NCBI GenBank assembly: GCA_009823505.1
Contig: VZQC01009559.1
Location: forward strand, 62,001-126,000
Direction: 5' to 3'
DNA: 64,000 bases
DNA from: Rhizomys pruinosus
Taxonomy: Eukaryota > Chordata > Mammalia > Rodentia > Spalacidae
The notes under the pieces are model-generated. The model searched no databases. It was not told the origin of the DNA and was given only the letters and a program-made list of their open reading frames with translations. Both the position numbers and the translations under genes were made by a program. How positions within the stretch are numbered: the first letter of the stretch is position 1; each line of letters opens with the position of its first letter. Positions 1-26,752 of this stretch are shown in pieces.

Positions 1-3000
1 AAGTTGAATGATCTAATGCTTGCAGCTAAAAGACTTGAGGTAGGCACACAACACGCCATGAACTTTAGAACAGCAAACAGACAGGAGAATCCAATAAAAA
101 ACTCAGAGCAGAAATGATGAAATAGAAACATAGAAAAAACAAAAAAATCAATGAATCCAAAAGTTGTTCTTTGAAAAGATAACAAGATAGACAGACCTTC
201 TAGCCCAGTTAACCAAGGAAAAAGGAACAACTCAAATCAATACAATCCATGATGAAAAGGGAAATCTCACAACAGACAGGAAAAAGTCCAGAAAATCATA
301 TGGGAATATTACAAAAACTATACTCTACCAGTTTGAAAACCTAGAAGAAATGGATGAATATCTGAAATCCTGGGAATCACCAAAGCTGACCAAGAAGAGA
401 TCGGACAGCTAAACAGACCCATAACATTTTAAGAAATGAGGATTGTATAAGAACCTCCAACTAAAAAAGCCAGGCCAGATGATTCACACAGAATCTATAA
501 AACGTTTCAAAAAGCCTACAACCATTATTACTGAAAACTGTTTAGAAGGATAAATCAGAGGGAATTCTCCCAAATTCCTTCTATGAAGCCAGCATCACTC
601 CAATTACCTAAACAGGCAAAGATCCAACTAAAAGGAGAATTATGACCCATCTCCCTAATGAACACAGATGCAAAATCTAAACAGGATTCTGGCAAATCCA
701 TACAGACCCACATCAAGATGATCATCCATCATGACCAAGTTGGATTCTACCAAACGAGATGCAGGGATGGTTCAACATACGAAAATCAATAACATCATCA
801 AACAACAAAAATGGAAATGAAAGACAAAAAACACACCATCATCTCAATTGATGCTGAAAAAGCCTTTGACAAAATCTAGCATCCTTCCAGCTTAAAGTCC
901 TAGAAGGAATTGGATTGGAGGGATCATCTCGATGTAATCAAAGCCAATACAGGAACCCACAGCTAATATTATCCTAAATGGGGAAATGACAGAAACATTC
1001 CCTTTAAAGGGTAGGAACTCGGCAAGGCTGCCCCTGTCACACTCCTCTCAATATAGTGCTTGAAAATTGCTAGAGCAATAAAGGCAAAGAAAAGGAAATT
1101 AAAGGAGTACTAATTGAAAGAGGAAGTCAAGCTATCCCTATTTGCTGATGATATGATTGTTTACTTAAGGGATGCTAAAACTTCATCAGAAACTCCTAGA
1201 AACAATTAACACAGCTTCAGCAAAGTGGCAGGATGCAAAATTAAACCTTAAAAAAAATCAATGGCCTTTCTTTACACCAAACAACAAGCAAATGAGAAGA
1301 ATTCAAGGAGACCTTCCCACTCACAATAAGCTCAAAAACAATAAAAATACCTAGGAACAACTTAACCAAAGACACCAAGGATGTCTACAACAAAAATTTA
1401 AACTTTAAAGAAAGAAATTGAAGAAGACATCAGAAGATGGAAAAACCTCCCATGCTCATGGATTGTGAAAATTAACATTGTAAAATGTCCATTTTACCAA
1501 AACTCTTGTATAGATTTAATGCAATTCCAATCAAAATCCCCAAGAGTTTCTTCACAGGCTTGGAAACAAAAGTCTTAAATTCATTTGGAAAAACAAAAGA
1601 CCCCGAATAGCCAAAACAACCCTTGGCAAAAAGAGCAATACAGGGGGGGGGATCTCTATACCAAGACTTCAAACTATACTACAGGGCTATAGTCATAAAA
1701 ACAGCCCTGTACTGTCCAAAAAAACGACCTGTAGACCAATGGAACAAACCGAAGATCCAAACTGAGCACATACAATTTTAGCCATCTATTTTGACAAGTG
1801 GGCCAAGAAGCCACAATGGAGAAAAGATAGCATCTTCAGCAAGTGTGTTGGCCAAACTGGATCACCACTTGTAGAAAGAATGAATTAAACCCCTACCTCT
1901 CGCCCTGTACAAAAGTCAACTCCAGATGAATGAAAGACCTCAACGTGAAACCCAAACTCTGAAGGTGATAGAAGAAAAAGTTGGCAGCAGACTACAAGAC
2001 ATAGGGGTAGGAAAGACTTCCTAAATCAGACAGCAGCTGCACAAGAATTAAGGTCAACATTGACAAATGGGAATCTCATTAAACTCAAAAGCTTCTGTAT
2101 AATCAAAAGAAACAATCAAGGAAGTGAAGAGAAATCCCACAGAGTGGGAGGAAACCTTCATCGCAGATACATCTGACAAAGCATTGATTTCCAGAATATA
2201 TAAACTCCTCAAAAAACAAAGAAAAATGAAAAATAAAATCACCCACTCAATAGATGGAGCCAAGAACTGAAAAGAGACTTCACAAGTGAGGAATTAGAGA
2301 TGGCTGAGAAACACTTAAGAAGTGTTCAACATCACTAATCATTAAGGAAATGCAAATCAAAACCACTTTAAGATATCATCTTACTCCAATAAGACTGGCT
2401 AGGATCAAGAAACAAATGATACCAGTGCTGGAGAGGTTGTGGGGAAGGGGAACACATCCACTGCTGGTGGGAATGTAACCTCGTGCAGCCACTGTGGAAA
2501 GCAGTGTGGAGAACCCTTGGAAGACTTGGAATGAACTGCCACCCGACCAGCCATACCACTCCTGGGTATGTACCCTCAAGACTCAACCCAACCGGAAAGA
2601 TACATGCACGGCCATGTTTATTTCAGCTCTCTTCACATAGCAAGGAGTTGGAACCAACACAAATGCCCCTCAACTGATGAGTGGATAGAGAAAATGTGGT
2701 ACATCTACACAATGGAGTTTTATGCAGTAGTAAAGAAGATGACAATGGAGCTTTGCAGGAAAATGGCTGGAGCTAGAGGACATCAATCTGAGTGAAGTAA
2801 CACAGTCCCAGAAAAACAAACGTGAATGGTATCCTCATCTGTGGATGCTAGTGCCAATTACATAGTTGTAATAATTTCTTGTGTATGGCCCCCTGAGCTT
2901 TTGTCCAAGCAGTCTTGGGCGTGATGCATATTGGAAACAACAACAACAACAACAACAACAACAAAACAGAAAGGACTGCATCGAAAACTGACTGAAAACA

Positions 3001-3147
3001 GTGAACTTCTGCTCAAAACAGTCAACTTCCTCAATGGGAAATATTGGAAAAGACTGAGAAAGAATGAAAAAGCATGTTTGGCAGAATTCATGATGCTCTG
3101 GGTGGGGGAATGGGCAGGAAACACAGGTCTAGATTTGTTAAAAAAAT
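1..3147 (+). mobile_element. LINE-1, 3' part: ORF2 remnant plus 3' UTR
   Basis: This is the 3' half of a LINE-1 retrotransposon, which copies itself through an RNA intermediate with the ORF2 reverse transcriptase. The endonuclease end lies outside the window. Frame-broken but readable ORF2 blocks are seen: IDAEKAFDKI near 845-876, the polymerase motif FADDMIVY at 1141-1164, and the C-terminal block with KMWYIYTMEFYAVVKK near 2690-2740. The ORF2 stop is about 2849-2851. The 3' UTR follows, with an (AAC)n tract at 2937-2965, a G-rich tract near 3100-3118 and a short A-rich end. Many frameshifts mean it cannot encode a working protein as written; some look like sequencing errors. High confidence in family, moderate in the 3' boundary. 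Confidence 0.93.
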
Positions 3148-3264
3148 AATAAATTTATGTGAAAAAGTTTAAATTATGTGTATTTTGTTGCACATGGTTT
3201 TATTTTTATATGGGACCTTTCACACAATTATAAAGTTTATATTGAACTTCCATGTTCATCAGAA

Positions 3265-3460
3265 ATTGGCTTATTTTTTCTTTTGGTTTTGGTATAAGGG
3301 TAATATTGGCTACATAAAAAAGATTTTTTTGACATCTATTTCTAGTTTATGGAAATAATTTGGGAAGAACTGGTGTTAGGTGTTAATCCTTTAAAAATAT
3401 GATAGAAATAAGAAATTAATCCATCTGGAATTTTGAGCTGGGAGGTTTTTTTTTTTATAC
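3265..3460 (-). mobile_element. Old L1 ORF2 fragment
   Basis: The text around GGTTTTGGTATAAGGGTAAT, followed by the GAACTGGTGTTA and CCATCTGGAATTTTGAG blocks, is the antisense of a well-known mammalian L1 ORF2 region. It is short and diverged, with no open frame. Second copy at 12540-12735. Confidence 0.65.
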
Positions 3461-3619
3461 TTTCTTTCCACCTTCGTTAGTCTAGGGCTATTTAAGTCAT
3501 TTATCTCATCTTGGCTGCACACACTGGCATTGCTGTTGCACCGCTGCCATTCACCTTTGACCTTCAGATGCTTGAACATGATATGTTCTGTACAGATGTT
3601 CCTGTTTGTCCTTTTCTGT

Positions 3620-3693
3620 CAGTGCTAGAGATTGAAGTTAGGAAGTGTGGCAGATGAGACAACACACTCTACCACTGAGCAACACCTCCAGAC
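3620..3693 (-). mobile_element. ID-like SINE (tRNA-Ala-derived head)
   Basis: The block AGTGCTAGAGATTGAA ... CTCTACCACTGAGCAACA ... CCAGAC reads, on the minus strand, as the tRNA-derived body of an ID/BC1-type SINE. Internal pol III box sequences are degraded. Second copy at 12894-12964. Confidence 0.65.
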
Positions 3694-3769
3694 TTTCTGT
3701 GTATTTGTTCTGATTAAGGTTTGTTAAGATTCTGTGATTTATAAATTAATGTTTTTCAATAAATTTGGA

Positions 3770-4034
3770 AATTTTCAGACTGGAGCGTTTTGAGGCAATG
3801 GTCCATTTTTATTCATTACTTTGTCTTTTTCAGCTAGGCAATTTCTTTGGACTTATCTTCAATTACAATTTTTCCCCTTATTTTGTGTATGGCTCGTCAG
3901 TCCATTTAGCTGTTTTCAATTTCAGTTATTTACTTTTCAGCTCTATAGAATACTTTCAGAAAAATAACTTCTGCTTTTCTGTTGAGATTGCCTATTACCT
4001 ATTGCATATGGCTGTTAATTATTTAAAATATTGT
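3770..4034 (-). mobile_element. Old L1 5'-region fragment
   Basis: The order of the motifs GGCAATTTCTTTGGACTTAT, TTTCAATTTCAGTTATTTA and TTTTCTGTTGAGATTGCCTA resembles the antisense of the 5' region of ancient mammalian L1. No coding frame survives. Second copy at 13045-13317. Confidence 0.5.
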
Positions 4035-4262
4035 GGGCTGGAGAGAGATGGCCTAGCGGTTAAGAGGCCGACCGCTCTTGCAGAGACCCGGGTTCGATCC
4101 CAGCACCCACATGGCGGCTGAGAACTGCCTGTAACTCCAATTCCAGGAGAACTCCAGTTCAGGGAATCCGACACCCTCTTCTGACCTCCGCGGCATTGCA
4201 TGACACGGGTGCACAGACCTACATTCAGACAGTACATTCATACATATAGAAAATAAATAAAT
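4035..4262 (+). mobile_element. B2 SINE, near full length
   Basis: It starts with the tRNA-derived head GGGCTGGAGAG, carries the B-box-like GGGTTCGATCC and ends in an AAATAAATAAA tail. Several CpGs survive, suggesting a fairly young insertion. Small indels separate it from its duplicate at 13318-13537, which reads cleaner (GGAGAGATGG rather than GGAGAGAGATGG here). Confidence 0.92.
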
Positions 4263-4331
4263 TCTTTCTAAACTTTCACTCAATCCCAAAAGCAACTAAC
4301 CAAGCAATTAATCAAAGAATCAACCCATTTT

Positions 4332-4576
4332 TTTTTCCCTTTTGAAACAGGTCTCCTATAGCCCCAGCTGTCTGGAACTCACTCTATAGAACCAGGCTGG
4401 CCTCGAACTCACAGAGATCCACCTCCCTCTGGCCTCCTGAGTGCTAGGATTAAAGGAGTGAGCCACCATGCCTGTCTTAAAGTGGTTCTTAGCTGCCACG
4501 TGGGTGCTGGGAATTGAACCCGGGTCCTCTGCAAGAGCAGTCGGCGCTCTTAACTGCTGAGCCATCTCTCCATCCC
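4332..4576 (-). mobile_element. Dimeric SINE: B2 head fused to B1
   Basis: On the minus strand this is the first ~95 nt of B2, cut after AGAACCAC..TTTAA, running straight into a complete B1 (CAGGCATGGTGG ...) and its A-rich tail. One target-site duplication flanks the whole unit: AGAATCAACCCATTTT at 4316-4331 and AGAATCAGCCCATTTT at 4577-4592, 15 of 16 identical. The two parts therefore inserted together. The same junction recurs at 45881-46138. Second copy of this locus at 13607-13853. Confidence 0.85.
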
Positions 4577-4703
4577 AGAATCAGCCCATTTTATAGAAAT
4601 CAGTGCTTCCACTCTGTCTTCTGGGTGTCACTGTTGACTGCCCTCGGGTTCTTGCACCCCAATCTGCTGTAATGTGCTATATAAATCTCTGGCTTAAAAA
4701 AAG

Positions 4704-5100
4704 TAGTCTGTCCTAGTTTTCTCTCTGTTGCGGTGATAAAACACTGACCGAATGCAACCTGGGGCAGAAAAGAGTTTATTTCACTTCTAGGTAGCTGTCC
4801 ATCACTGAACTAAACCAGGGTAGGAACTCAAGGTGGGAACATGGAGTGGCAACCAGGGAGGAATGCTTCTTACTGGCTCATTCTCTGGCTCTCTCACCGG
4901 CTCATACTCAGCTAGCTTTCTATACAGCCTCTGCCCACCTGCCTGCCTGTGGATGGTATGACCCACAGTGAGCTGAGTCCTACATCAATTAGCAGTGAAG
5001 AGAAATCCCCATAGGCACTAATCTGATTCAAAGCCATTCTTCAGTGAAGTTTCCTTTCTCTCAAGTGACTCTAGGTTGTGTTGACAATAAAAGTAGCCAT
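4704..5100 (-). mobile_element. Rodent interspersed repeat, LTR-like (family not named)
   Basis: It shares its whole order of motifs with 38427-38863: TTCTCTCTGTTGCGGTGATAA, GAGTTTATTTCACTT, CTTACTGGCTCATT, CCCACAGTGAGCTGAGTCC and a GTTGACA end. The minus strand carries AATAAA near one end, so I assign minus. I recognise it as a common rodent family but cannot fix the name. Second copy at 13983-14375. Confidence 0.65.
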
Positions 5101-6018
5101 TACATATTCATCACCATGCCAATGTACAATTATTTGTTTCCTTTGGTTAATATAGACAGCTACGCTGAAAGAACTCAGAACAATTAGAAATACTTAGAAC
5201 TGAGGTTACTTATATTGATTCTGCTGATCTAATATTCATTATGGGTTGGATTTCTGAGTCGCAGAAAGCTTTCTTTTCATATTATGGTGCTAAGTCAGTT
5301 CCTATATATTAGATTACATCAACTTGATTAATTTTGCTTCTATGTGTATCAGCTGGCAGTCATTTCCATGGGCAAAATAAAAACCTTTGAATTATCTTCT
5401 TATTTGATTAGAGCATGTTGTATTTTTAAAACCTCTTTCCCTCTCTTTTCTAAATCAAGATTTAGTCATCTTAATTAGAACTGGTAGGCCCTATAGCCAA
5501 TGTTAAATCATGCCAACAGCCCAGTTTTTGAAATGAGAGTGGACACTGGTCTGAGGAGACCTTTCTTTATTACCGTTTGTGGTGGCAGAATGGAACAGAG
5601 CAATTATTGGTGCAGAGTAATTTAATACTGTTTTATTAAACATTGTCTCTTCATCTTGGTGAGGAGGTCTGGGATTCACGAGGATGTCCATTTTCTGTGA
5701 AATACTATCCGATTTACATAGATGAATTCACAGTCTATGGTCATCTTAATAAAAAAAAATCACGATATAAAGATGAACTAAAATCTGAGCAGAGAATAAA
5801 AATTGAAAAGCAATTAACATGTATCTTTCAAAACTTACAGTGATATTGGTTTACTTTTCTTCCTTACCTGAACAGACACACTGTTTTCACATCAGACTGC
5901 TCACACAGAACAGAGATGAGGAATTAAAATAGTGATTAATTGTCCTAAATAGAGCTTAAATTATTCAGATATATTTTATTGAAAAAAGATGCTTTTCTTT
6001 AAGTAGTTTTTTTTTTTT
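5101..6018. other. Unassigned AT-rich DNA
   Basis: No repeat family, exon or promoter is recognisable. A 62-codon minus frame at 5503-5691 is intact in both copies of the duplication but matches nothing I know and is likely chance. Second copy at 14376-15291. Confidence 0.5.
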
Positions 6019-6234
6019 AAATTATATTTATTTTTATTTATGTGGGATGACTTTTTCCTGCATGTAAGTAACCCCTGTCATGTAGTACCCTGTCAGGCCA
6101 GAGATGAGGGCATTGGCTCCTCTGGAACTGGAGTAGCAAAAGGTCATTAGCAGACAGTCATGTGGGTGCTGGGAACCAAATCCAGATATCTGAAGAGCAT
6201 GAAGTGAGTGCTCTAGCTGCTGAGCCATGTCCAG
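6019..6234 (-). mobile_element. B2 SINE, diverged
   Basis: It reads on plus as a T-rich tail, then CTGCATGTAAGT, GGAACTGGAGTAG, GTGGGTGCTGGGAACC and the head complement GCTGAGCCATGTCCAGC. The head is damaged. Second copy at 15292-15512. Confidence 0.85.
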
Positions 6235-6789
6235 CTAACAAATGGTTGTTTTATCAGACATTTAGTGTTTAAGTTACAGTTTATTTTGTCTGCTCTGTAA
6301 ACTTGCAGAAGGAATGGAATTTGGGGTCTTTTAGAGAACTTTTATGAAGGGAAATTCTTTTATACAATTCTTTCTATGTAATAGTGCCATAAAACAATAC
6401 ATTTTCTTAATCTTATTTAATACCAACTACTTTTTCTCCCAAAGGGAAACAGAAGCATTTCCACACAGAAATAAAAGGACTTTCTTCTAAAGAAATCACA
6501 TAAATACATTTTAAAGTTAATATTATTTATGTATTCATATCTAAAGAGTTCTTACTCCTTCAGCTCATAGAGTATTTTCAGTGTTTTTTTTTTTTTTTTG
6601 TAAAATCTCACATACACTTACCTAGGCTATGTTTGAGCTCACTCAGTGTATAGTTCAAGTTAGCTGTGAACTTGAAATATTCCTACTTGCTGGAATTACA
6701 GAATGCCTAACCAAACCCAGCTTGTATGTTTTTGCATGGATTTTATGACCTAATTTTCAAATGTATGCAATACATTCGCTACATGGTAT
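6235..6789. other. Unassigned AT-rich DNA with a poly-T run
   Basis: Nothing recognised except a T run of about 17 at 6583-6599 that differs in length in the second copy (near 15860). Confidence 0.4.
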
Positions 6790-7150
6790 TCAAAGAATAA
6801 AAATGTGAGACAACATGCCTTGCTTGTTTTTCTGAGTCTGAATTATCTCACTTAGCATAACAGTTTTCTATTCTGTCCATTTGCCTGCACATTTCATGAA
6901 TTCAGTATTTTTATAGCTGATCTGAACTCCCTTGTGTGAAATGTACCACGTTTTCATGATCTATTCTTAAGTTAAAGGATATTTAGCTTGTTTCCATTTC
7001 CTAGCTATTGTAAAAGAGCAGAAATAACATTGCTGAGCAAATATCTCTGAAGTTAGATATTGGGTCCTTAGGGTATATGACAAGGAGTAGTATAACTGGG
7101 CCATACAGTAGACCTATTTTTAGTTTATTGAGAATCAACAAGCTGTCTAA
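6790..7150 (-). mobile_element. L1 ORF2 3'-end fragment, older family
   Basis: The antisense of the ORF2 C-terminal region is readable: TCTGTCCATTTGCCTGCACA, ATGTACCACGTTTTC, TCCATTTCCTAGCTATTGT and the GGGTATATGACAAGGAGTAG block. It is more diverged than the edge L1s. Second copy at 16070-16440. Confidence 0.75.
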
Positions 7151-8644
7151 TTGACTTAGGCTCATTCAATAAGAGGGAATCCATCATGGTCTTGTAAAAC
7201 CAGTACACATAGCTCTAGAGTTCATAAATGCTAGAGAACAATCTTTGCAAGCCATGTGGGTCTAGGAAAGGCTCTTAAGTACAGGACTGGGTGCTTGGCT
7301 ACTTAGTGCATGCACAGTGGTCATTACTGGCATTATGAACCCCAGAATTCCTGTTTTGGGGGACTCTCTTGGCAGCAGTCAGTCTCTGCACCTTGAAGTC
7401 AAGAGCTGTGGCTTTTTTCCAAGGATGAAGAAACAGACTGAGTAGAGCAATGCACAGCGTGGTGGAAATCTTTTGCCATATTGAGTAGGTACTATTGTTT
7501 CTTGAACATTATCAAAAGTGACTTTCAAATCAGTGTGAAGGCTGGGGCAGGAGTGAGACTCATCCATAAATTTAGGATGGAAAATTTCCTTGGCAGAATT
7601 TCCTGAGCTGGAAAATCACTAATTTTCTTTCCCTTGTCCACAAGAGGTCAGAAAATTACTTAGCTGCTAGATAATATAGTGACTACATTTCAAATATTCT
7701 TCAAGTCTGACCACATTCCGGGACACCCTTTCTGCACTGATCACCAAATTTGTCCCCCTGACAGATTCCCCATGGGCCCTTTGGGGACTGTCCATGAGGT
7801 AGCATAGGTGTGGTCTTTAGCTCTCTCTCTTCTGTGGTCACCAATGACCCCCCTCACTTACTGTGTGGATGTCTCAGGATTCTTTTCTCCAAGGGGAAAA
7901 AGTTGTTGGGGCAAGTTCTGTTGATGGGGCAAGTTCTCCAGGTTGGATAAGGGCCCTGGGTTCTGAGGCAGGATCTATTCCACATTGCACAGGGTATCGG
8001 CTGTTTGAGGTGGTGTGCAGATGGAGGAAATGCTTCCGAGCCCTTCCATAATCTTTGCTGTTGGTTCAGTTCATTTGGATCCTTCTAGATAGTGATCTCA
8101 TAGAGAAGTCACATTCCATAGAGAAGTCATACCACATAGAGAAGTCATAGACATTCTACCCTGCTCTGAACTATGTGCCTCCAAATAGCAAATCTGCTTG
8201 ACTGGAGTCCTTGAACTTCTTTTTACCCTGGTCACTGATGAAGGACAGCTTGACTTTTATCCCCATCTTATAGCTGTCTAGACTCATCCTCACTCATATC
8301 AAACAGCTTCCCAGACTCATTAAAGTGAACCCAGATTTCATAATCCAGAAGAACCCACATGGTATTGCCATATATAACAGCCTTTTAAGTTAGTACACAC
8401 TATAGTTAATTATGGAAAGAAAATATAGCTATCTAGCAATTTTCAGTAAATGCTTCTGATACATTAAAATATGTAAAGAACAGTATGATGAACAGCACTA
8501 AGAAATGCACTGTGTCCATGCTAGAAGGATCTCCTCCCTGTCATGCCTCTGTGTTCCCTGTCTTCAGGTGTCAACATCTACTCTGAATCTTTAGGAATCC
8601 ATATGCACTTCATCTTTCCTATACTTTATATTTTAGAGTTTGAG
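7151..8644. other. Unassigned single-copy-looking DNA
   Basis: About 1.5 kb without recognised repeats. The two duplicated copies are almost free of differences here (7270-8640 against 16553-17924). It holds a short tandem of three CATAGAGAAGTCA units at about 8099-8149. A 62-codon plus frame at 7863-8051 has no recognised relative. Confidence 0.5.
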
Positions 8645-8780
8645 AGTTTATCAAACACAGTACTTAAGAGCACAGACTCTTGAATCAGACTGTCTGGATT
8701 TGAATCCTGGAGACCTCTTTACTAGCCATGTTTTTTGTAGGAATTATTTAACTGTGTTATGTATTCTTCAGTTTTCTTTC
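8645..8780 (+). mobile_element. MIR SINE
   Basis: The MIR core is clear: AGAGCACAGACTCTTGAATC, AGACTGTCTGGATTTGAATC and a degraded CAGTTTTC end. A minus-strand B1 interrupts its 3' side. Second copy at 17929-18064. Confidence 0.8.
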
Positions 8781-8916
8781 TGGTATTTTGAGACAAGATT
8801 TCCCTATAGCCCCATCTGGCGTGGAACTTGGTATGTAGAGCAAGCTGATCTCATGGAGATCTGCTGTCTCCTCCTGAGTGCAGGGAATCAAAGGTGTGTG
8901 CCCCATGGTCAAGCTC
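8781..8916 (-). mobile_element. B1 SINE
   Basis: 7SL-derived B1 read on plus as TTTTGAGACAAGATTTCCC, ATGTAGAGCAAGCTGATCTC and GTGTGTGCCCCATG. It is older and has lost several consensus bases. Second copy at 18065-18200 has fewer indels. Confidence 0.88.
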
Positions 8917-8945
8917 AATTATTCACTTTTTTGAAAGATATATGT

Positions 8946-9165
8946 GGGCTGGGAGATGGCATGCAGTGGTTAAGACCATTCTGCTCTTGCACGGATGACC
9001 GGGTTTGAATTCCCAGCACCCCATGCAGTGGCTAACAACTTCCATAACCCAGTTCTAGTGGTTCATGATGTTCTTTTCGAACCTCTGTGGGGCATTGCTG
9101 ACATGGGTGCATTTACACATGTGTAGGCAAAACATTAATACACACAAAATAATAAATAGAATTTA
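8946..9165 (+). mobile_element. B2 SINE
   Basis: The head GGGCTGGGAGATGGC, the B-box-like GGGTTTGAATTCC and an AATAAATAGAA tail mark a full-length B2. This copy carries about ten extra or missing bases relative to 18231-18450, where the head reads normally, so many are probably consensus errors. Confidence 0.88.
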
Positions 9166-9394
9166 AAAGAAAAGTGTCTGTAAAGTGGTGGTATCGATAT
9201 TAGCAATATTTAAGAGGAACTCATTTAGAATATGTACAATCTTAAATAACACCAGAACAATAAAGCTCCAGATTAAATATTTTTAATTATGTAATTCTAT
9301 GTGCATTAAAGTTTATACAAACAATATTATAATATGTAAATGTATCCTTTGTAACTTCCCTTGGGGGTATTATAGTCTGTGATATTCATTTTGA

Positions 9395-10200
9395 TGTATA
9401 TATATATAATGTATATATATATTCTTCTTTTTTCAATATTTATATATATTGAATTTTATGCATTTCATATAACAATGTTAATCATATTAGACCCCTCCCC
9501 TATCTGTACACCCCCATAGGCTGCCCACCAGATTTCATACATTGCCTCATATATGTTAAGGCCTATAAGTCCAGTTTGTGTACCCAGATGTTCCTCAGTG
9601 TGAGTTATCCACTGGAGCCTGTTTCAGCCTATCTAGCATCAGTCCCTTAAAGAAGACAAGTTCCTCCTTCAGCTGCCAATAGTTTCCTTGGCTAAAGTTG
9701 GGACCCCCTACCATTTCTCCCAGTTCTGTGCTATGTTTGAGCGAGTCGACTGTCTGACTGAGTTTGCAAGTGTCTTGTGATGCTGTCCCCATTGCTATTA
9801 ACTTCTTATGAGCAAGTTCCCAGAAGCCTAGAAGTCTCTGTTTCCTTTTTGGTCATGCACCAACCCTGGCTCTCACAATCTTTCCACCCCCTCTTCTGCA
9901 GTGGTCCCTGAGTCCTGTGTGGGTGAGGTTTAGTATAGGAGTCCTATTAGGGCAATGCACTCTCAAGTCCCTTATTCTATACATTTTGGCCAGTTTGTGG
10001 CTTCTGTGTTAATCAGGCTCTGTTTCCTGGGGAAACTTCACTGGTAAGAGTTGAAACATGCATTAGTATTTTGTCTACTGCCTGTTCTATTATGTTCTGT
10101 GGGCCTTAGGTATAGGGGTTCCAGCTCAATGGGAGGGCACTCATGTGAGGTCTTGTAAACAGCTAAATACACATGGCTGGAGAGGTCACAGATCCTAGAA
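9395..10200 (-). mobile_element. L1 3' UTR fragment (Lx-like), with (TA)n
   Basis: The antisense matches a rodent L1 3' UTR: TTATGCATTTCATATAAC, TTATCCACTGGAGCCTG, CCCTTAAAGAAGAC, CACCCCCTCTTCTGCAGTGG and GTCTCTGTTTCC. A shorter relative lies at 60968-61380. A (TA)n tract lies at 9397-9423. The distal part after 9900 is less certain. Second copy at about 18715-19490. Confidence 0.75.
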
Positions 10201-10374
10201 AAAACCCTACATCTGTTGTATCCTTAGACAAATGTAATTTCTTACTGTATGCTAAATATTGGATTTTTATATTTACAGACAAGTGTACCTGTCACTATTC
10301 ATAAAAGAAGCTTCTTTTGCAACAGATGGAAACTATGACAGAGTTCACATACAGAGAATAGTTGTCTTTCCCCT

Positions 10375-10463
10375 CTTTTTTAGAACAGGGCCTTGCTATG
10401 TTGCCCAGGCTGACCTTCAACTAGTAGACCCTCCTCCCTTTGTTTTTTGGGTACTGGGATTAC
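10375..10463 (-). mobile_element. B1-like fragment, cut by the N
   Basis: It reads GGCCTTGCTATGTTGCCCAG ... GGTACTGGGATTAC and stops at the N at 10464. In the second copy (19668-19790) the sequence continues as AGGCCTGTGTCTCC, so the cut is the edge of the duplication. Confidence 0.75.
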
Positions 10464-10464
10464 N
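10464..10464. other. Single ambiguous base at duplication edge
   Basis: The only N in the window sits exactly where similarity between the two 7.9-kb copies ends. That is typical of a contig join or failed consensus, so sequence on either side may not be adjacent in the animal. Confidence 0.9.
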
Positions 10465-12209
10465 GTTATCGCATCCCCAGCTGGTATTAAACGGTCAGGG
10501 TTGCTGTAACTCATGAGATCTGCAATCATCTAGGCCAGCGGGAAGGTACTGGGGCACGGCTGAAGAGAACGATGTGTCGCTGTCGTACTACACGATGTGT
10601 AGGCTCGACCCCCCTCCGGCCCGCCAAACTGGGATTACAAAGGGGCAGTGCTCGAAAGCAGGCAGCAAAGCAACCCTTCAACACAGCGAAGAGGCATTTA
10701 AGGACTCACATTTGGAATACAGGCAAGGAGAAGCCACCATATGGCCAAGATCACAAAGAAGAGACAACACTGGAAAGGGGCAGGATTATCCCACACCAAG
10801 CTCTACCAACCCCTATGGAAGATTCCTGCAGTGGACGCCTCCCTCTGCGGCGACCTGCCCCAGGATACAGATTATCAGAAGACAACAACTTTGGGAACAT
10901 ATTTAAAAGAACTACAAGATTATAAAAGCAACAAAGTCAGAGAATTAAGAAAAAGAGAATGAAGAACTCAAGAAGGACCCTAGAGAGAGAGAATGACAAA
11001 CTAGGGAAGGAAGTAGAAACACTGAAAATGATCCCATGCTGCACAAAAGATCCAACCAGCGAAACCAACCAGTGAAGCACATAGCTACAGGAAGAGATTG
11101 AGAATCTCCAAAAAGAAGTAGAAATCTAAAGAAATCAGAAGAGGAAATTAAAAAGGTAATCAAACACTCATCCAATCCAAAAAGAAGGAATGGGAAAAAG
11201 CCTCAGAAGCAGAATGGAGGAAGCAGAACAAAGAATATTAGACCTGGAAGATAACACACAGAACAACTAAAAAACCTCAAAGAAAGGTTCATGACAAACA
11301 TTTAAAAGTTACACAAAAGTGGAAAATAGACAGGAACTGTGGGACACTATGCAAAGATCAAAACTCCGCAATCACCTAGGAACAGCAGGAAGAGAAGAAA
11401 TCCAAAACGAGAAATGAGTATGATTCAGATCTCCACAGAATTATAGATGAAAACTATCCCAAACTAAAAAAGGACAAACCACAATACAAATACAAGAAGA
11501 CTAGAAACTCCAACAGACAAGATCAAGCAAAAGGAATTTTCCACACCACATCATAGCTTAAATGAACTAGACACCCAAAACAAGACCAAAATCCTAAAGC
11601 ACAAGAGAAAAAACAAAAAGTGACCTATAAGGGAAACCTAATCACGAATATCAACATGGACTTCTCAATGCAACATATGAAAGCAAGAAGAACCTGAGGG
11701 GAGCAACAGCGCACATTCCCAGAGTTAAGGGACAATAGATGCCAATCCAGGTTACTATACCCAGCAAAAATGTCAAACATAGTTTAAGGAGAGAGAAAAC
11801 CTTCCATGACTAAAGCAACATTTGAAAGAATACATTCTGGAAAACCAACCCTTCAGAGAAATACTTGAAGAAATTTGCACGGCCATGTTTATTTCAGCTC
11901 TCTTCACAATAGCAAGGAGCTGGAACCAACCCAAATGCCCCTCAACTGATGAGTGGATAGAGAAAATGTGGTACATCTACACAATGGAGTTTTATGCAGT
12001 AGTAAAGAAAGATGACATCATGAGCTTTGCAGGAAAATGGCTGGAGCTAGAGGACATCATGCTGAGTGAAGTAACACAGTCCCAGAAAAACAAACGATGA
12101 ATGGTATCCCTCATCTGTGGATGCTAGTGCCAATTACATAGTTGTAAGTATTTCTTGTGTATGGCCCCCTGAGCTTTTGTCCAGAGCAGTTGGGCGTGAT
12201 GCATATTGG

Positions 12210-12244
<35 letters not shown>

Positions 12245-12427
12245 GAAAGGACTGCATCGAAGAACTGACTGAAACAGTGAACTTCTGCTCAAAACAGTCA
12301 ACTTCCTCATGGAGAATATTGGAAAAGACTGAGAAAGAGATGAAAAGCATGTTTGGCAGAATTCATGAGCTCTGGCGGGGTGGGGGAATGGGCAGGAACA
12401 CAGGTCTAGATTTGTTAAAAAAATAAT
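10465..12427 (+). mobile_element. LINE-1 with ORF1 joined to the 3' end; most of ORF2 missing
   Basis: A CpG-bearing 5' stretch (10465-10740) leads to an ATG at 10741 and a 73-codon frame (MAKITKKRQHWKGAG...). This is the position and style of an L1 ORF1 N terminus, which makes an RNA-binding coiled-coil protein. Lysine- and glutamate-rich coiled-coil remnants follow, then the C-terminal domain signature LLYPAKMS near 11750-11772. At 11876 it jumps into the last ~250 bp of ORF2 (stop at 12125-12127) and a 3' UTR with (AAC)n at 12210-12243. About 3.6 kb of ORF2 is absent. It could be a HAL1-like deletion derivative or an assembly join; the break coincides with the duplication edge. Confidence 0.8.
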
Positions 12428-12539
12428 AAATTTATGTGAAAAAGTTTTAATTATGTGTATTTGTTGCTCATGGTTTTATTTTATATGGGACCATTTCACA
12501 CAATTATAAAGTTTATATTGAACTTCCATGTTCATCAAG

Positions 12540-12735
12540 GAAATTGGCTTATTATTTTCTTTTGGTTTTGGTATAAGGGTAATATTGGCTACATAAAAAG
12601 ATTTTTTTGACATCTATTTCTAGTTTATGGAATAATTTGGGAAGAACTGGTGTTAGGTGTTAATCCTTTAAAAATATGATAGAAATAAGAAATTAATCCA
12701 TCTGGAATTTTGAGCTGGGAGGTTTTTTTTTTATT
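12540..12735 (-). mobile_element. Old L1 ORF2 fragment (duplicate)
   Basis: Same element as 3265-3460, with a few homopolymer differences. Confidence 0.65.
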
Positions 12736-12893
12736 ACTGTTTCCACCTTCGTTAGTCTAGGGCTATTTAAGTCATTTATCTCATCTTGGCTGCACACACT
12801 GGCATTGCTGTTGCACCGCTGCCATTCACCTTTGACCTTCAGATGCTTGAACATGATATGTTCTGTACAGATGTTCCTGTTTGTCCTTTTCTG

Positions 12894-12964
12894 TCAGTGC
12901 TAGAGATTGAAGTTAGGAAGTGTGCAGATGAGACACACACTCTACCACTGAGCAACACCTCCAG
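12894..12964 (-). mobile_element. ID-like SINE (duplicate)
   Basis: Same element as 3620-3693; it lacks the extra bases seen there in GTGTGGCAGATG and ACAACACACT. Confidence 0.65.
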
Positions 12965-13044
12965 ACTTTCTGTGTATTTGTTCTGATTAAGGTTTGTTAA
13001 GATTCTGTGATTTATAAATTAATGTTTTTCAATAAATTTGGAAA

Positions 13045-13317
13045 ATTTTCAGACTGGAGCGTTTTGAGGCAATGGTCCATTTTTATTCATTACTTTGTCT
13101 TTTTCAGCTAGGCAATTTCTTTGGACTTATCTTCAATTACAATTTTTCCCCTTATTTTGTGTTGGCTCGTCAGTCCATTTAGCTGTTTTCAATTTCAGTT
13201 ATTTACTTTTCAGCTCTATAGAATACTTTCAGAAAAATAACTTCTGCTTTTCTGTTGAGATTGCCTATTACCTATTGCATATTGCTGTTAATTATTTAAA
13301 ATATTGTGGGCTGGAGA
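13045..13317 (-). mobile_element. Old L1 5'-region fragment (duplicate)
   Basis: Same element as 3770-4034. Confidence 0.5.
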
Positions 13318-13537
13318 GATGGCCTAGCGGTTAAGAGTGCCGACCGCTCTTGCAGAGGACCCGGGTTCGATCCCCAGCACCCACATGGCGGCTGAGAACT
13401 GCCTGTAACTCCAATTCCAGGAGAACTCCAGTTCCAAGGGAATCCGACACCCTCTTCTGACCTCCGCGGCATTGCATGACACGGGTGCACAGACCTACAT
13501 TCAGACAGTACATTCATACATATAGAAAATAAATAAA
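13318..13537 (+). mobile_element. B2 SINE (duplicate, cleaner copy)
   Basis: Full-length B2 with head GGGCTGGAGAGATGGCC, GGGTTCGATCCCC box and AATAAATAAA tail. Confidence 0.92.
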
Positions 13538-13606
13538 TTCTTTCTAACTTTCACTCAATCCCAAAAGCAACTAACCAAGCAATTAATCAAAGAATCAACC
13601 CATTTT

Positions 13607-13853
13607 TTTTTCCCTTTTGAAACAGGGTCTCCTATAGCCCCAGCTGTCCTGGAACTCACTCTATAGACCAGGCTGGCCTCGAACTCACAGAGATCCACCT
13701 CCCTCTGCCTCCTGAGTGCTAGGATTAAAGGAGTGAGCCACCATGCCTGTCTTAAAGGTGGTTCTTAGCTGCCACGTGGGTGCTGGGAATTGAACCCGGG
13801 TCCTCTGCAAGAGCAGTCGGCGCTCTTAACTGCTGAGCCATCTCTCCATCCCC
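13607..13853 (-). mobile_element. Dimeric SINE: B2 head fused to B1 (duplicate)
   Basis: Same unit as 4332-4576. Target-site duplications lie at 13591-13606 and 13854-13869. The B1 half has the intact text GAAACAGGGTCTCC. Confidence 0.85.
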
Positions 13854-13982
13854 AGAATCAGCCCATTTTATAGAAATCAGTGCTTCCACTCTGTCTTCTG
13901 GGTGTCACTGTTGACTGCCCTCGGGTTCTTGCACCCCAATCTGCTGTAATGTGCTATATAAATCTCTGGCTTAAAAAAAGTA

Positions 13983-14375
13983 GTCTGTCCTAGTTTTCTC
14001 TCTGTTGCGGTGATAAAACACTGACCGAATGCAACCTGGGGCAGAAAAGAGTTTATTTCACTTCTAGGTAGCTGTCCATCACTGAACTAAACCAGGGTAG
14101 GAACTCAAGGTGGGAACATGGAGTGGCAACCAGGGAGGAATGCTTCTTACTGGCTCATTCTCTGGCTCTCTCACCGGCTCATACTCAGCTAGCTTTCTTA
14201 TACAGCCTCTGCCCACCTGCCTGCCTGTGGATGGTATGACCCACAGTGAGCTGAGTCCTACATCAATTAGCAGTGAAGAGAATACCCATAGGCCTATCTG
14301 ATCAAAGCCATTCTTCAGGTGAAGTTCCTTCTTCTCAAGTGACTCTAGGTTGTGTTGACAATAAAAGTAGCCATT
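13983..14375 (-). mobile_element. Rodent interspersed repeat, LTR-like (duplicate)
   Basis: Same element as 4704-5100. A patch at 14281-14340 differs by several indels from 4998-5058. Confidence 0.65.
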
Positions 14376-15291
14376 ACATATTCATCACCATGCCAATGTA
14401 CAATTATTTGTTTCCTTTGGTTAATATAGACAGCTACGCTGAAAGAACTCAGAACAATTAGAAATACTTAGAACTGAGGTTACTTATATTGATTCTGCTG
14501 ATCTAATATTCATTATGGGTTGGATTTCTGAGTCGCAGAAAGCTTTCTTTTCATATTATGGTGCTAAGTCAGTTCCTATATATTAGATTACATCAACTTG
14601 ATTAATTTTGCTTCTATGTGTATCAGCTGGCAGTCATTTCCATGGGCAAAATAAAAACCTTTGAATTATCTTCTTATTTGATTAGAGCATGTTGTATTTT
14701 TAAAACCTCTTTCCCTCTCTTTTCTAAATCAAGATTTAGTCATCTTAATTAGAACTGGTAGGCCCTATAGCCAATGTTAAATCATGCCAACAGCCCAGTT
14801 TTTGAAATGAGAGTGGACACTGGTCTGAGGAGACCTTTCTTTATTACCGTTTGTGGTGGCAGAATGGAACAGAGCAATTATTGGTGCAGAGTAATTTAAT
14901 ACTGTTTTATTAAACATTGTCTCTTCATCTTGGTGAGGAGGTCTGGGATTCACGAGGATGTCCATTTTCTGTGAAATACTATCCGATTTACATAGATGAA
15001 TTCACAGTCTATGGTCATCTTATAAAAAAAAATCACGATATAAAGATGAACTAAAATCTGAGCAGAGAATAAAAATGTGAAAAGCAATTAACATGTATCT
15101 TTCAAAACTTACAGTGATATTGGTTTACTTTTCTTCCTTACCTGAACAGACACACTGTTTTCACATCAGACTGCTCACACAGAACAGAGATGAGGAATTA
15201 AAATAGTGATTAATTGTCCTAAATAGAGCTTAAATTATTCAGATATATTTTATTGAATAAAAGATGCTTTTCTTTAAGTAGTGTTTTTTTT
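14376..15291. other. Unassigned AT-rich DNA (duplicate)
   Basis: Counterpart of 5101-6018; nothing recognised. Confidence 0.5.
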
Positions 15292-15512
15292 TAAATTATA
15301 TTTATTTTTATTTTATGTGGGATGACTTTTTCCTGCATGTAAGTACACCCCTGTCATGTAGTACCTGTCCAGGCCAGATGAGGGCATTGGCTCCTCTGGA
15401 ACTGGAGTAGCAAAAGGTCATTAGCAGACAGTCATGTGGGTGCTGGGAACCAAATCCAGATATCCTGAAAGAGCATGAAGTGAGTGCTCTTAGCTGCTGA
15501 GCCATGTCCAGC
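15292..15512 (-). mobile_element. B2 SINE, diverged (duplicate)
   Basis: Same element as 6019-6234. Confidence 0.85.
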
Positions 15513-16069
15513 TAACAAATGGTTGTTTTATCAGACATTTAGTGTTTAAGTTACAGTTTATTTTGTCTGCTCTGTAAACTTGCAGAAGGAATGGAATTTG
15601 GGGTCTTTTAGAGAACTTTTATGAAGGGAAATTCTTTTATACAATTCTTTCTATGTAATAGTGCCATAAAACATATACATTTTCTTAATCTTATTTTAAT
15701 ACCAACTACTTTTTCTCCCAAAGGGAAACAGAAGCATTTCCACACAGAAATAAAAGGACTTTCTTCTAAAGAAATCACATTAAATACATTTTAAAGTTAA
15801 TTATTTATGTATTCATATCTAAAGAGTTCTTACTCCTTCAGCTCATAGAGTATTTTCAGTTTTTTTTTTTTTTTTGTAAAATCTCACATACACTTACCTA
15901 GGCTATGTTTGAGCTCACTCAGTGTATAGTTCAAGTTAGCTGTGAACTTGAAATATTCCTACTTGCTGGAATTACAGAATGCCTAACCAAACCCAGCTTG
16001 TATGTTTTTGCATGGATTTTATGACCTAATTTTCAAATGTATGCAATACATTCGCTACATGGTATTCAA
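15513..16069. other. Unassigned AT-rich DNA (duplicate)
   Basis: Counterpart of 6235-6789, with a poly-T run near 15859-15875. Confidence 0.4.
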
Positions 16070-16440
16070 AGAATAAAAATGTGAGACAACATGCCTTGCT
16101 TGTTTTTCTGAGTCTGAATTATCTCACTTAGCATAACAGTTTCTAGTTCTGTCCATTTGCCTGCACATTTCATGAATTCAGTATTTTTATAGCTGATCTG
16201 AACTCCCTTGTGTAAATGTACCACGTTTTCATGATCTATTCTTCAGTTAAAGGATATTTAGGCTTTTTCCATTTCCTAGCTATTGTGAAAAGAGCAGAAA
16301 TAACATTGCTGAGCAAATATCTCTGAAGTTAGATATTGGGTCCTTAGGGTATATGACAAGGAGTAGTATAACTGGGCCATACAGTAGACCTATTTTTAGT
16401 TTATTGAGAATCAACAGCTGTCTAATTGGACTTAGGCTCA
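16070..16440 (-). mobile_element. L1 ORF2 3'-end fragment (duplicate)
   Basis: Same element as 6790-7150; a few bases read closer to L1 consensus (TTTCTAGTTCTGTCC). Confidence 0.75.
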
Positions 16441-17928
16441 TTCAATAAGAGGGAATCCATGCATCGTACTGTAAACACAACCAAGTACACATAGCTCTAG
16501 AGTTCATAAATGCTAGAGAACAATCTTTGCAAGCCATGTGGGTCTAGGCAAAGGCTCTTAAGTACAGGACTGGGTGCTTGGCTACTTAGTGCATGCACAG
16601 TGGTCATTACTGGCATTATGAACCCCAGAATTCCTGTTTTGGGGGACTCTCTTGGCAGCAGTCAGTCTCTGCACCTTGAAGTCAAGAGCTGTGGCTTTTT
16701 TCCAAGGATGAAGAAACAGACTGAGTAGAGCAATGCACAGCGTGGTGGAAATCTTTTGCCATATTGAGTAGGTACTATTGTTTCTTGAACATTATCAAAA
16801 GTGACTTTCAAATCAGTGTGAAGGCTGGGGCAGGAGTGAGACTCATCCATAAATTTAGGATGGAAAATTTCCTTGGCAGAATTTCCTGAGCTGGAAAATC
16901 ACTAATTTTCTTTCCCTTGTCCACAAGAGGTCAGAAAATTACTTAGCTGCTAGATAATATAGTGACTACATTTCAAATATTCTTCAAGTCTGACCACATT
17001 CCGGGACACCCTTTCTGCACTGATCACCAAATTTGTCCCCCTGACAGATTCCCCATGGGCCCTTTGGGGACTGTCCATGAGGTAGCATAGGTGTGGTCTT
17101 TAGCTCTCTCTCTTCTGTGGTCACCAATGACCCCCCTCACTTACTGTGTGGATGTCTCAGGATTCTTTTCTCCAAGGGGAAAAAGTTGTTGGGGCAAGTT
17201 CTGTTGATGGGGCAAGTTCTCCAGGTTGGATAAGGGCCCTGGGTTCTGAGGCAGGATCTATTCCACATTGCACAGGGTATCGGCTGTTTGAGGTGGTGTG
17301 CAGATGGAGGAAATGCTTCCGAGCCCTTCCATAATCTTTGCTGTTGGTTCAGTTCATTTGGATCCTTCTAGATAGTGATCTCATAGAGAAGTCACATTCC
17401 ATAGAGAAGTCATACCACATAGAGAAGTCATAGACATTCTACCCTGCTCTGAACTATGTGCCTCCAAATAGCAAATCTGCTTGACTGGAGTCCTTGAACT
17501 TCTTTTTACCCTGGTCACTGATGAAGGACAGCTTGACTTTTATCCCCATCTTATAGCTGTCTAGACTCATCCTCACTCATATCAAACAGCTTCCCAGACT
17601 CATTAAAGTGAACCCAGATTTCATAATCCAGAAGAACCCACATGGTATTGCCATATATAACAGCCTTTTAAGTTAGTACACACTATAGTTAATTATGGAA
17701 AGAAAATATAGCTATCTAGCAATTTTCAGTAAATGCTTCTGATACATTAAAATATGTAAAGAACAGTATGATGAACAGCACTAAGAAATGCACTGTGTCC
17801 ATGCTAGAAGGATCTCCTCCCTGTCATGCCTCTGTGTTCCCTGTCTTCAGGTGTCAACATCTACTCTGAATCTTTAGGAATCCATATGCACTTCATCTTT
17901 CCTATACTTTATATTTTAGAGTTTGAGA
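16441..17928. other. Unassigned single-copy-looking DNA (duplicate)
   Basis: Counterpart of 7151-8644. A disagreement patch at 16455-16490 is followed by well over 1 kb of near identity. The CATAGAGAAGTCA tandem lies near 17382-17432. Confidence 0.5.
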
Positions 17929-18064
17929 GTTTATCAAACACAGTACTTAAGAGCACAGACTCTTGAATCAGACTGTCTGGATTTGAATCCTGGAGACCTC
18001 TTTACTAGCCATGTTTTTTGTAGGAATTATTTAACTGTGTTATGTATTCTTCAGTTTTCTTTCT
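17929..18064 (+). mobile_element. MIR SINE (duplicate)
   Basis: Same element as 8645-8780. Confidence 0.8.
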
Positions 18065-18200
18065 GGTATTTTTGAGACAAGATTTCCCTATAGCCCCATC
18101 TGGCGTGGAACTTGGTATGTAGAGCAAGCTGATCTCATGGAGATCTGCCTGGTCTGCCTCCTGAGTGCAGGGAATCAAAGGTGTGTGCCCCATGTCAAGC
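18065..18200 (-). mobile_element. B1 SINE (duplicate)
   Basis: Same element as 8781-8916, with a more regular central part (GATCTGCCTGGTCTGCCTCC). Confidence 0.88.
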
Positions 18201-18230
18201 TCAATTATTCACTTTTTGAAAGATATATGT

Positions 18231-18450
18231 GGGCTGGAGAGATGGCTCAGTGGTTAAGACCACTAGCTTCTTTTGCAGCGGATGACCCGGGTTTGATTCC
18301 CAGCACCCATGCAGTGGCTAACAACTGTCCATAACTCCAGTTCTAGTGGTTCTGATGTTCTTTTCTGACCTCTGTGGGCATTGCATGACATGGGTGCATT
18401 TACACATGTGTAGGCAAAACATTAATACACACAAAATAATAAATAGAATA
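18231..18450 (+). mobile_element. B2 SINE (duplicate, cleaner copy)
   Basis: Head GGGCTGGAGAGATGGCTCAG and box CCCGGGTTTGATTCCC are intact, unlike 8946-9165. Confidence 0.9.
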
Positions 18451-18714
18451 TTAAAAAGAAAAGTGTCTGTAAAGTGGTGGTATCGATATTAGCAATATTT
18501 AAGAGGAACTCATTTAGAATATGTACAATCTTAGAATAACACCAAGAACAAATAAAGCTCCAGATTAAATATTTGTAATTATGTAATTCTATGTGCATTA
18601 AAGTTTTATACAAACAATATTATAATATGTATATGTATCCTTTTGTAACTTCCTTGGGGGTATTATAGTCTGTGATATTCATTTTGATGTATATATATAT
18701 ATATGTATATATAT

Positions 18715-19490
18715 ATTTCTTCTTTTTTCAATATTTATATATATTGAATTTTTATGCATTTCATATAATACATGTTAATCATATTAGACCCCTCCCCTAT
18801 CTGTACACCCCCATAGGCTGCCCACCAGATTTCATACATTGCCTCATATATGTTAAGGCCTATCAAGTCCAGTTTGTGTACCCAGATGTTCCTCAGTGTG
18901 AGTTATCCACTGGAGCCTGTTCAGCCTATCTAGCATCAGTCCCTTAAAGAAGACCAAGTCTCCTTCAGCTGCCAATAGTTCCTTGGCTAAAGTTGGGACC
19001 CCCTACCATTTCTCCCAGTTCTGTGCTATGTTTGAGCGAGTCGACTGTCTGACTGAGTTTGCAAGTGTCTTGTGATGCTGTCCCCATTGCTATTAACTTC
19101 TTATGAGCAAGTTCCCAGAAGCCTAGAAGTCTCTGTTTCCTTGTGGTCATGCACCAACCCTGGCTCCTACAATCTTTCCACCCCCTCTTCTGCAGTGGTC
19201 CCTGAGTCCTGTGTGGGTGAGGTTTAGTATAGGAGTCCTATTGAGGGCTATGCACTCTCAAGTCTCTTATTCTATACATTTTGGCCAGTTGTGGGCTTCT
19301 GTGTTAATCAGGCTCTGTTTCCTGGGGAAACTTCACTGGTAAGAGTTGAAACATGCATTAGTATTTTGTCTACTGCCTGTTCTATTATGTTCTGTGGGCC
19401 TTAGGTATAGGGGTTCCAGCTCAATGGGAGGGCACTCATGTGAGGTCTTGTAAACAGCTAAATACACATGGCTGGAGAGGTCACAGATCC
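18715..19490 (-). mobile_element. L1 3' UTR fragment, Lx-like (duplicate)
   Basis: Same element as 9395-10200, preceded by (TA)n at about 18688-18716. Confidence 0.75.
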
Positions 19491-19667
19491 TAGAAAAAAC
19501 CCTACATCTGTTGTATCCTTAGACAAATGTAATTTCTTACTGTATGCTAAATATGGATTTTTATATTTACAGACAAGTGTACCTGTCACTATTCATAAAA
19601 GAAGCTTCTTTTTGCAACAGATGGAAACTATGACAGAGTTCACATACAGAGAATAAGTGTCTCTTCC

Positions 19668-19790
19668 CCTCTTTTGACAGGGCCTTGCTATGTTGCCCAG
19701 GCTGACCTTCAACTAGTAGACCCTCCTCCCTTTGTTTTTTGGGTACTGGGATTACAGGCCTGTGTCTCCACATGTAGATTGTATACTTTC
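19668..19790 (-). mobile_element. B1-like fragment (duplicate, uncut)
   Basis: Counterpart of 10375-10463. The first ~88 bp match that copy; here the sequence continues past the duplication edge. Confidence 0.7.
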
Positions 19791-19915
19791 TGATAGAGCT
19801 TTCTTTTATGGGGCATTTGGTTGCTTATGAAATTTTTTTGCAATAACAAATAATTCTACTATGAATGCTTATTATATACTTAATATGTATGCTTATTAAT
19901 ATTCATGAGTAAGAT

Positions 19916-19958
19916 TCCTCCTCCTCCTCCTCCTCCTCCTCCTCCTCCTCCTCCTCCT
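19916..19958 (+). repeat. (TCC)n microsatellite
   Basis: About 14 uninterrupted CTC/TCC units. The tract is pure pyrimidine on this strand and likely variable in length. Confidence 0.97.
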
Positions 19959-20085
19959 TCTTTGGTCTTATCGGTCTCCCTGTAGCCTTAGCTGGCCTGG
20001 AACTCACTATGTAGACCAGGCTAGCCCTGATCTCACAGAGATCCACCTGCCTCTCAAGTGCTGAGATTAAGTTGAGCTGAGCAAG
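19959..20085 (-). mobile_element. B1 SINE
   Basis: Reads TCGGTCTCCCTGTAGCC, ATGTAGACCAGGCTAGCC and AGATCCACCTGCCTC. The (TCC)n tract sits at its A-tail side and may have grown from the tail. Confidence 0.9.
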
Positions 20086-21156
20086 ATCTTTTTCTAAGGC
20101 TTATGCAAGACAATATAATTTGCTAGTCTTAAATTTTATTTGTTCATTAACTAAGGAACAAGCTTTTTCATATTCAACTTCTTCAAGCTTGTATTTACCA
20201 TGAAAGATTGTACTAACCTCTATGTAGGAGAAATTTAAGCCTCTTAATTAATGATAACTCAGACTCTCTTGGTTGAAATGGTCTATTTTGGATATCTAAG
20301 TTATCTCAGTGAATATACTATGTTCTTTTTTTTCATGTTCCTTCTTGTATGTATCAAAACTCATACTGAACAATGAGTTCCGGGTTGCAAAAGAGGATTT
20401 AATTTTGCACCTGTCTGTCATGTCTTTGTTCATCAGCTGAACACAAACACACACACACAGTGCTAAATACTACGTTTTCGTGTTTTACTCCTTCCCCTGT
20501 CTCTTGCTGAGGTGCCTTCTGGGGCTTAATCATGCATCAGCTCCAGGAGGTGGGTTTTTTTTGCTCTCCACTGGGCTGGTGGAGAGCTAGGCCTCTCTCT
20601 GGACTGGCCTATCTAACTGGACATTATGCTTCTGGCTGTTTTAGTGGTTGGGAGGTGTAACTTATCAAAATTGTTTTATTGTAATCTCAGACCTCTGCTG
20701 TCTCCTCGGTGCTTCTAGCAAGTCTGCAGTTTCCATGGCACAATTATCACAAATGGAGACTTGTGGGGTCTGTGGGAATCGGACAAGCTGTGGGCGGGGC
20801 AGGAGTGCTGCCCACAGCGTACAGAGCCATCAGTCCCTCTCCAGTGTGTGATGCCCCTCCTGTGCAGAGCCGGGGGTGTCCATTCTCTCCCAACCTCCAA
20901 ATGCATGTCGAGCCTGGGCAGGTACTGTGATCTCAACTGGGGTTGGTTGGCTTCTCTTGCCTTTCTGGATGTGTCTATTTTGCCTCCCTGTGGGGTTTCT
21001 GTCCCAAGAAGGGGAAATTACTCATATTTAATTGCTCAACTTTATCTCTTTTCTAGTTAGCATTTTCCCTTATGGCTGATATGATTTCAGCCTAACTGGT
21101 ACTTATCTCATGCTTTCATTTAGTCACAGAGGTGGCTGACTGTAGAGATTAAACTG
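20086..21156. other. Unassigned; GC-richer block 20500-21060
   Basis: No repeat family recognised. 20500-21060 is GC-richer than its surroundings and has short overlapping frames on both strands (up to 99 codons) with no recognised similarity. It could be an old LTR or L1 5' region. A short (CA)n lies at about 20447-20459. Confidence 0.35.
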
Positions 21157-21490
21157 GATCTGATGAGATGGTTCAGTTGGTAAAGTCTTGCCATGCAAGA
21201 ATGAGAACCTGAGTTTGATCCATAGCATCCATGTAAAAAGTGCTCCATAGTGATTTGCATTTATAATCTCAATTCTGAGGAGGTGGAGATAGGCAAGTGC
21301 TTGAAGCTTGCTGGCTGTCCTGTTTAGCCTACTGGGAAAGCCAGATCTCAGTGAGACTGTGACTCCAAAAAATAAAAATGTGGATGGCTTCTGAGGGAGA
21401 CTACCTGAGGTTGACTAGCTTCCACTTACACACTCCTCCATACATATTTGTACACACACTCTCCCCTGTTATATACATGTGCCTGCATCC

Positions 21491-21493
<3 letters not shown>
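21157..21493 (+). mobile_element. B4 SINE (ID/B1 chimera)
   Basis: A tRNA-like head (GATGAGATGGTTCAG ... GCCATGCAAGAATGAGAACC ... GAGTTTGATCC) runs into a B1-like body (TTTATAATCTCAATTCTGAG ... GTGAGACTGTGACTCC), followed by the B4-type 3' part and CA-rich tail. Confidence 0.8.

Positions 21494-21572
<79 letters not shown>
21494..21572 (+). repeat. (CA)n(GA)n compound microsatellite
   Basis: About 15 CA units pass directly into about 23 GA units at the tail of the B4 element. Confidence 0.97.

Positions 21573-22978: not shown

Positions 22979-22981
<3 letters not shown>
21573..22981. other. Unassigned; possible old coding-derived block 21630-22090
   Basis: 21630-22090 is balanced in composition and has two overlapping plus frames (21672-21908, 78 codons; 21880-22146, 88 codons) that would join by one shift. 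I cannot identify a parent gene and see no poly-A tail, so I do not call a pseudogene. A (TA)n stretch lies at 22808-22830. The rest shows nothing. Confidence 0.3.

Positions 22982-23020
<39 letters not shown>
22982..23020 (+). repeat. (CA)n microsatellite
   Basis: About 19 CA units without interruption. Confidence 0.97.
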
Positions 23021-23022
<2 letters not shown>

Positions 23023-24525: not shown

Positions 24526-24680
24526 CTGATATTCATTCATTGATATAGACATGCATTCTCCACACATTTATCATCTACCATATTTTAAGTGCTAGAGATG
24601 CAGAGACAAGCAAGAACATTCATCACAGTGAGGAGGTGGTTTTTAATCCCTGCCATGTAGCAGTTCCTATGGGTGATTAG
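24526..24680 (-). mobile_element. L2 3'-end fragment
   Basis: The antisense L2 end is suggested by ATTCATTCATTGATATAGAC, CATATTTTAAGTGCTAGAGA and TTAATCCCTGCCATGTAG in the expected order. Confidence 0.6.

Positions 24681-26565: not shown

Positions 26566-26621
<56 letters not shown>

Positions 26622-26685: not shown

Positions 26686-26752
<67 letters not shown>

Follow-up and report, generated by a model that had tools for sequence, protein, structure and literature searches.

A 7.9-kb segment occurs twice, in direct orientation, within the 64-kb window, by which we mean the whole stretch of DNA that was analysed, and this repeat is most likely an ordinary assembly error rather than a real duplication. 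Judged from the sequence, one locus was very probably written twice: overlapping contig ends would have been laid in tandem with a gap and one of the two copies left unpolished, an arrangement described as a homotype false duplication. A probable false duplication had already been proposed in the initial annotation. It stands as the best interpretation and gains further evidence, since copy 1 is the deviant one at 30 of the 35 differences for which a closely related repeat can act as referee. Left uncorrected, the repeat would enter counts of recent segmental duplications, and with it an L1 carrying an odd internal deletion would be recorded. The coordinates of the features are collected in Table 1.

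Table 1. Features at and around the 7.9-kb direct repeat (positions in the window)
Feature	Position	Strand	Description	Basis
Left L1	1..3154	+	ORF2 (ORF2p residue ~377 through to the end) followed by the 3' end; indel-rich; last 550 bases within copy 1	
Copy 1	2605..10463	+	Carries most scorable errors; probable right end of the left contig	BLAST, alignment with cheap gaps, comparison with related repeats
Single N	10464..10464	.	Probable scaffold join; immediately follows the end of the match in copy 1	
Spacer (first part of the middle L1)	10465..11875	+	Frame-broken, L1 ORF1-like; start presumed to be L1 5' UTR (our own reading, without database match); probable left end of the right contig	
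Copy 2	11876..19755	+	Cleaner copy; continues without a gap into the right-hand sequence; starts at about ORF2p residue 1192 within an L1	

Extent of the repeat and the N at its edge

When the window was compared with itself using BLAST, copies 1 and 2 emerged as one continuous direct repeat, the top-scoring by far among those listed. This single alignment, which bears out the duplication first described, comprises 7,940 columns at 97.76% identity, and includes 37 mismatches and 124 gap openings. Since pairs of indels may mimic runs of substitutions, the copies were realigned with the gap price set low, as for sequencing error; a MAFFT alignment, in which compensating indel pairs were displayed as substitution runs, was replaced and its counts were not used. 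Realignment gave 7,951 columns, 7,772 of them identical, and 159 events, comprising 143 indels and 16 substitutions. A single base is involved in 128 of the indels, in agreement with the initial annotation, and the shorter copy is copy 1 in 82 events and copy 2 in 61.

These events are distributed unevenly along the repeat. The longest run free of differences covers approximately 1.5 kb (7266-8785), which upholds the earlier report of identity over more than 1 kb, and the next covers approximately 0.69 kb (5058-5748). When 159 events were placed at random, the largest gap in 20,000 trials was 664 bases. The dispersion index is 4.4 (30 bins), and 20 events lie within the 262-base bin starting at 8893. 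Clustering in patches was thus correctly perceived, but it is not restricted to the three patches originally named, as further accumulations of events occur at about 5980-6500, 6860-7270 and 9155-10380. Furthermore, 91 of the 159 events (57%) fall inside the part of copy 2 (33%) with matches to other repeats of the window, a density of 34.8 per kb versus 12.9 per kb elsewhere, with the repeat intervals set by us from the referee matches plus a SINE-like end at 19676-19755. Such an excess is consistent with short-read correction or polishing failing in repeats.

The N at 10464 is the sole non-ACGT base in the window, and its position exactly at the end of copy 1 was accurately recorded at the outset. 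Past the end of the repeat, copy 2 continues with letters unlike those after the N, which would mark a scaffold join. In the consulted parts of the scaffolding literature, including PMC5368935, PMC7736779 and PMC7081964, no rule was found by which a scaffolder writes a single N between overlapping contigs, and this counts against our explanation. A 12-mer common to positions 10628 and 19745 was disregarded, because in 98.5% of 200 randomly chosen stretches of equal length one or more 12-mers recur elsewhere in the window. Just to the right of copy 2, a full-length match to the SNORA40 snoRNA family is located at 20334-20464 on the minus strand (107.7 bits), representing either a gene or a retrocopy.

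Direction of the differences between the copies

Related L1 pieces and SINE-type repeats occur in the window outside the duplication; the latter are several elements that we take to be B1-like and B2-like SINEs, types that suggest a rodent genome. The related repeats to the right of 19755 were consulted as referees at each difference, with either copy serving as the frame. With referees at least 82% identical, 35 events were scorable, the remaining 124 of 159 having no referee that close; copy 1 deviates in 30, copy 2 in 3 and 2 are ties, and the count is the same in either frame. At a threshold of at least 75%, copy 2 is favoured in 48, copy 1 in 7 and neither in 5 of 60 events when copy 2 is the frame, and in 31, 3 and 2 of 36 when copy 1 is the frame. 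At 88% or more, the corresponding figures are 26, 3 and 1 of 30, and 10, 1 and 2 of 13. When no identity limit was imposed, 86 events were scorable in the frame of copy 2 (73 of the 159 lacking any referee), the family state being found in copy 2 at 61 and in copy 1 at 17, with 8 ties; in the frame of copy 1, 82 were scorable, divided into 55, 12 and 15, respectively. The events in which copy 1 keeps the family state, 17 and 12 without a limit and 3 at 82% or more, count against a false duplication.

Gap openings likewise mark copy 1 as the deviant. When each copy was compared with other repeats of the window (matches of at least 80% identity and at least 90 bases), 437 mismatches and 88 gap openings were counted for copy 1 (3,879 aligned bases, 22 hits) and 470 mismatches and 22 gap openings for copy 2 (4,142 aligned bases, 24 hits). 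Gap openings are therefore fourfold in copy 1 relative to copy 2, while mismatches are alike. Differences that have referees look mainly like errors in copy 1 of the kind produced by sequencing, and by extension the events without a referee would also be errors of copy 1. Judging the differences between two copies by related repeats of one and the same sequence thus provides a check, free of reads, that indicates which copy is likely to be wrong.

L1 sequence around the repeat

The left L1 was recognized from two protein matches: 191-409 corresponds to residues 377-445 of LINE-1 ORF2p (E 1e-4), and 2308-2475 to residues 1092-1125 (E 4e-11), a segment for which the CFAP61 chain 9d2f_J scored slightly better (1.8e-11). 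The same chain also turned up in a second search. In the spacer, 11566-11694 resembles the structure of the L1 ORF1 C-terminal domain 2jrb (PDB search, E 0.42, weak), and 11698-11784 resembles Tnp_22_dsRBD (Pfam, E 0.13, below the cut-off). ORF1 matches were absent from seven of eight spacer pieces and from both spacer ORFs in Pfam, and from two of three PDB queries (10738-10959 and 11295-11414); in all, no Pfam family exceeded the cut-off for six ORFs or ten pieces. On the two weak, colinear matches and our own reading of the frames, the spacer looks like L1 ORF1. At its junction with copy 2, this ORF1-like sequence adjoins the last ~80 codons of ORF2, followed by the L1 3' end, and the residue numbers suggest that ~3.6 kb of ORF2 is missing from the middle L1 at 11876. 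The initial annotation described the two elements as if one L1 had been split between contigs, the left piece supplying ORF2 and the middle piece ORF1. That assignment is retained with a refinement, as the middle L1 also holds the final codons of ORF2 and the 3' end.

Indel excess outside the duplication was assessed through L1 pairings. The ratio of indels to substitutions is 0.82 for the left L1 at 664-3154 against the L1 at 64000-61507 and 0.61 for copy 1's own L1 end. It is 0.24-0.25 for copy 2 against 64000-61507, for the left L1 at 1671-2783 against 42676-41547, and for the right L1 against 42653-41553. The second of these pairings (0.25) shows no indel excess in the left L1 and counts against our explanation, which makes an indel excess beyond the duplicated segment less certain than the one within it; the right L1 may account for part of the value of 0.82. 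Two observations concern these elements in their own right. The stretches 664-3154 and 61507-64000 are related L1 3' parts at opposite ends of the window and in opposite orientations, 88% identical over 2.5 kb. Additionally, at 62480-62981 (minus strand), the right L1 aligned with that at 41553-42653 shows 30 indels in the first 500 aligned bases versus 4 in the remaining 600, and errors in one of the two are likely.

Alternative explanations and known systems

It appears improbable that the tandem duplication is real and very recent, with its breakpoints within or close to L1 sequence and with short-read polishing restricted to copy 2 as the sole reason why copy 1 is poor. L1 sequence does lie at the start of both copies, and the two long stretches without differences show no more than a true divergence close to zero, as would also be expected of a duplication that is real but very young. 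Moreover, real copies could be polished unequally too, and for this reason the patchy indels, which had been offered as diagnostic of a false duplication, do not discriminate alone: a very young real duplication polished in this manner could yield the same pattern. The case against a real duplication lies instead in the sole N of 64 kb standing at the exact edge of copy 1 and in a spacer that neither flank explains. True tandem copies would be adjacent or separated by sequence derived from a flank; here the 1.4 kb between them has no counterpart in 1-2604, in 19756-23000 or in the rest of the window, so that the arrangement goes beyond what a simple tandem duplication accounts for and would require an extra insertion. 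The L1 pieces at 1-3154, 10465-11875 and 61507-64000 have no match in 19756-30000, where no partner for L1-L1 recombination is therefore seen, and unequal recombination between L1s was set aside. Less probable still is a genuine tandem duplication with copies identical through youth, in which an L1 5' fragment was trapped at the junction during repair and copy 1 escaped polishing.

The least probable of these alternatives is a heterotype (allelic) false duplication, in which two haplotypes differing by an internal L1 deletion were kept as two contigs. The ORF2 segment lacking from the middle L1 is in large part present in the left L1 and could be allelic, as could some of the substitutions, which number only 16 over the 7.9 kb, all of them outside the long runs free of differences, and which may or may not be haplotype-specific. 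However, at 30 of the 35 differences with a close referee the change lies in copy 1, and no difference of any kind interrupts the stretches of ~1.5 and ~0.7 kb. The haplotype-derived false segmental duplications of PMC2864568 are similar in that one locus appears twice in an assembly, but in the consulted parts of that study separately assembled haplotypes show more SNPs than indels (124,432 versus 22,960 in chimpanzee, 188,617 versus 16,840 in chicken and 50,209 versus 10,764 in cow), whereas indels here exceed substitutions by 143 to 16. Half read depth, originally suggested as a supporting sign, belongs to this allelic case; a homotype false duplication is expected to show very low depth, as far as the relevant section of PMC9516828 indicates.

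Under the preferred homotype explanation, two contigs, one ending at 10463 and the other beginning at 10465, would share the same 7.9 kb, and the scaffolder would have joined them in series through a single N instead of merging them. The overlap was probably overlooked because the end of the left contig is full of what would be uncorrected long-read indels, and probably also because the first 1.4 kb of the right contig is an L1 5' piece either misjoined at 11876 or joined there with the collapse of ~3.6 kb of ORF2. The contig boundary, the long-read origin of the errors, the polishing of one copy and the collapse inside the L1 are all parts that we infer.

Homotype false duplications, as outlined in the consulted text of the Vertebrate Genomes Project (PMC8081667), arise from overlaps where contigs meet, frequently about as long as a corrected read. 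Scaffolding turns such overlaps into tandem copies separated by a gap, which are recognized by their differing consensus quality. The main signs of homotype false duplications in the corresponding portion of PMC9516828 include a gap between the copies and low depth. The present repeat resembles them in its tandem copies, with the N as the gap on what would be one scaffold, in its kilobase size, in the unequal quality of the copies and in differences of the error type; a length of 7.9 kb would match corrected long reads, depending on the source reads. Unlike the cases described there, what would be the right contig opens with 1.4 kb that the left contig, as far as it lies in the window, does not show. 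Overlapping nanopore contigs left unhandled by a hybrid scaffolder are described in a passage of PMC7736779. Furthermore, the passages on BiSCoT (PMC7649008) report that, of two duplicated copies, one tends to attract the short reads while the other stays unpolished. The Bionano overlap artefact that BiSCoT corrects shares with our case overlapping contigs in series, a kilobase duplication and one unpolished copy, but 13 Ns are written there and a single N here, which makes another scaffolding or gap step likely in this assembly.
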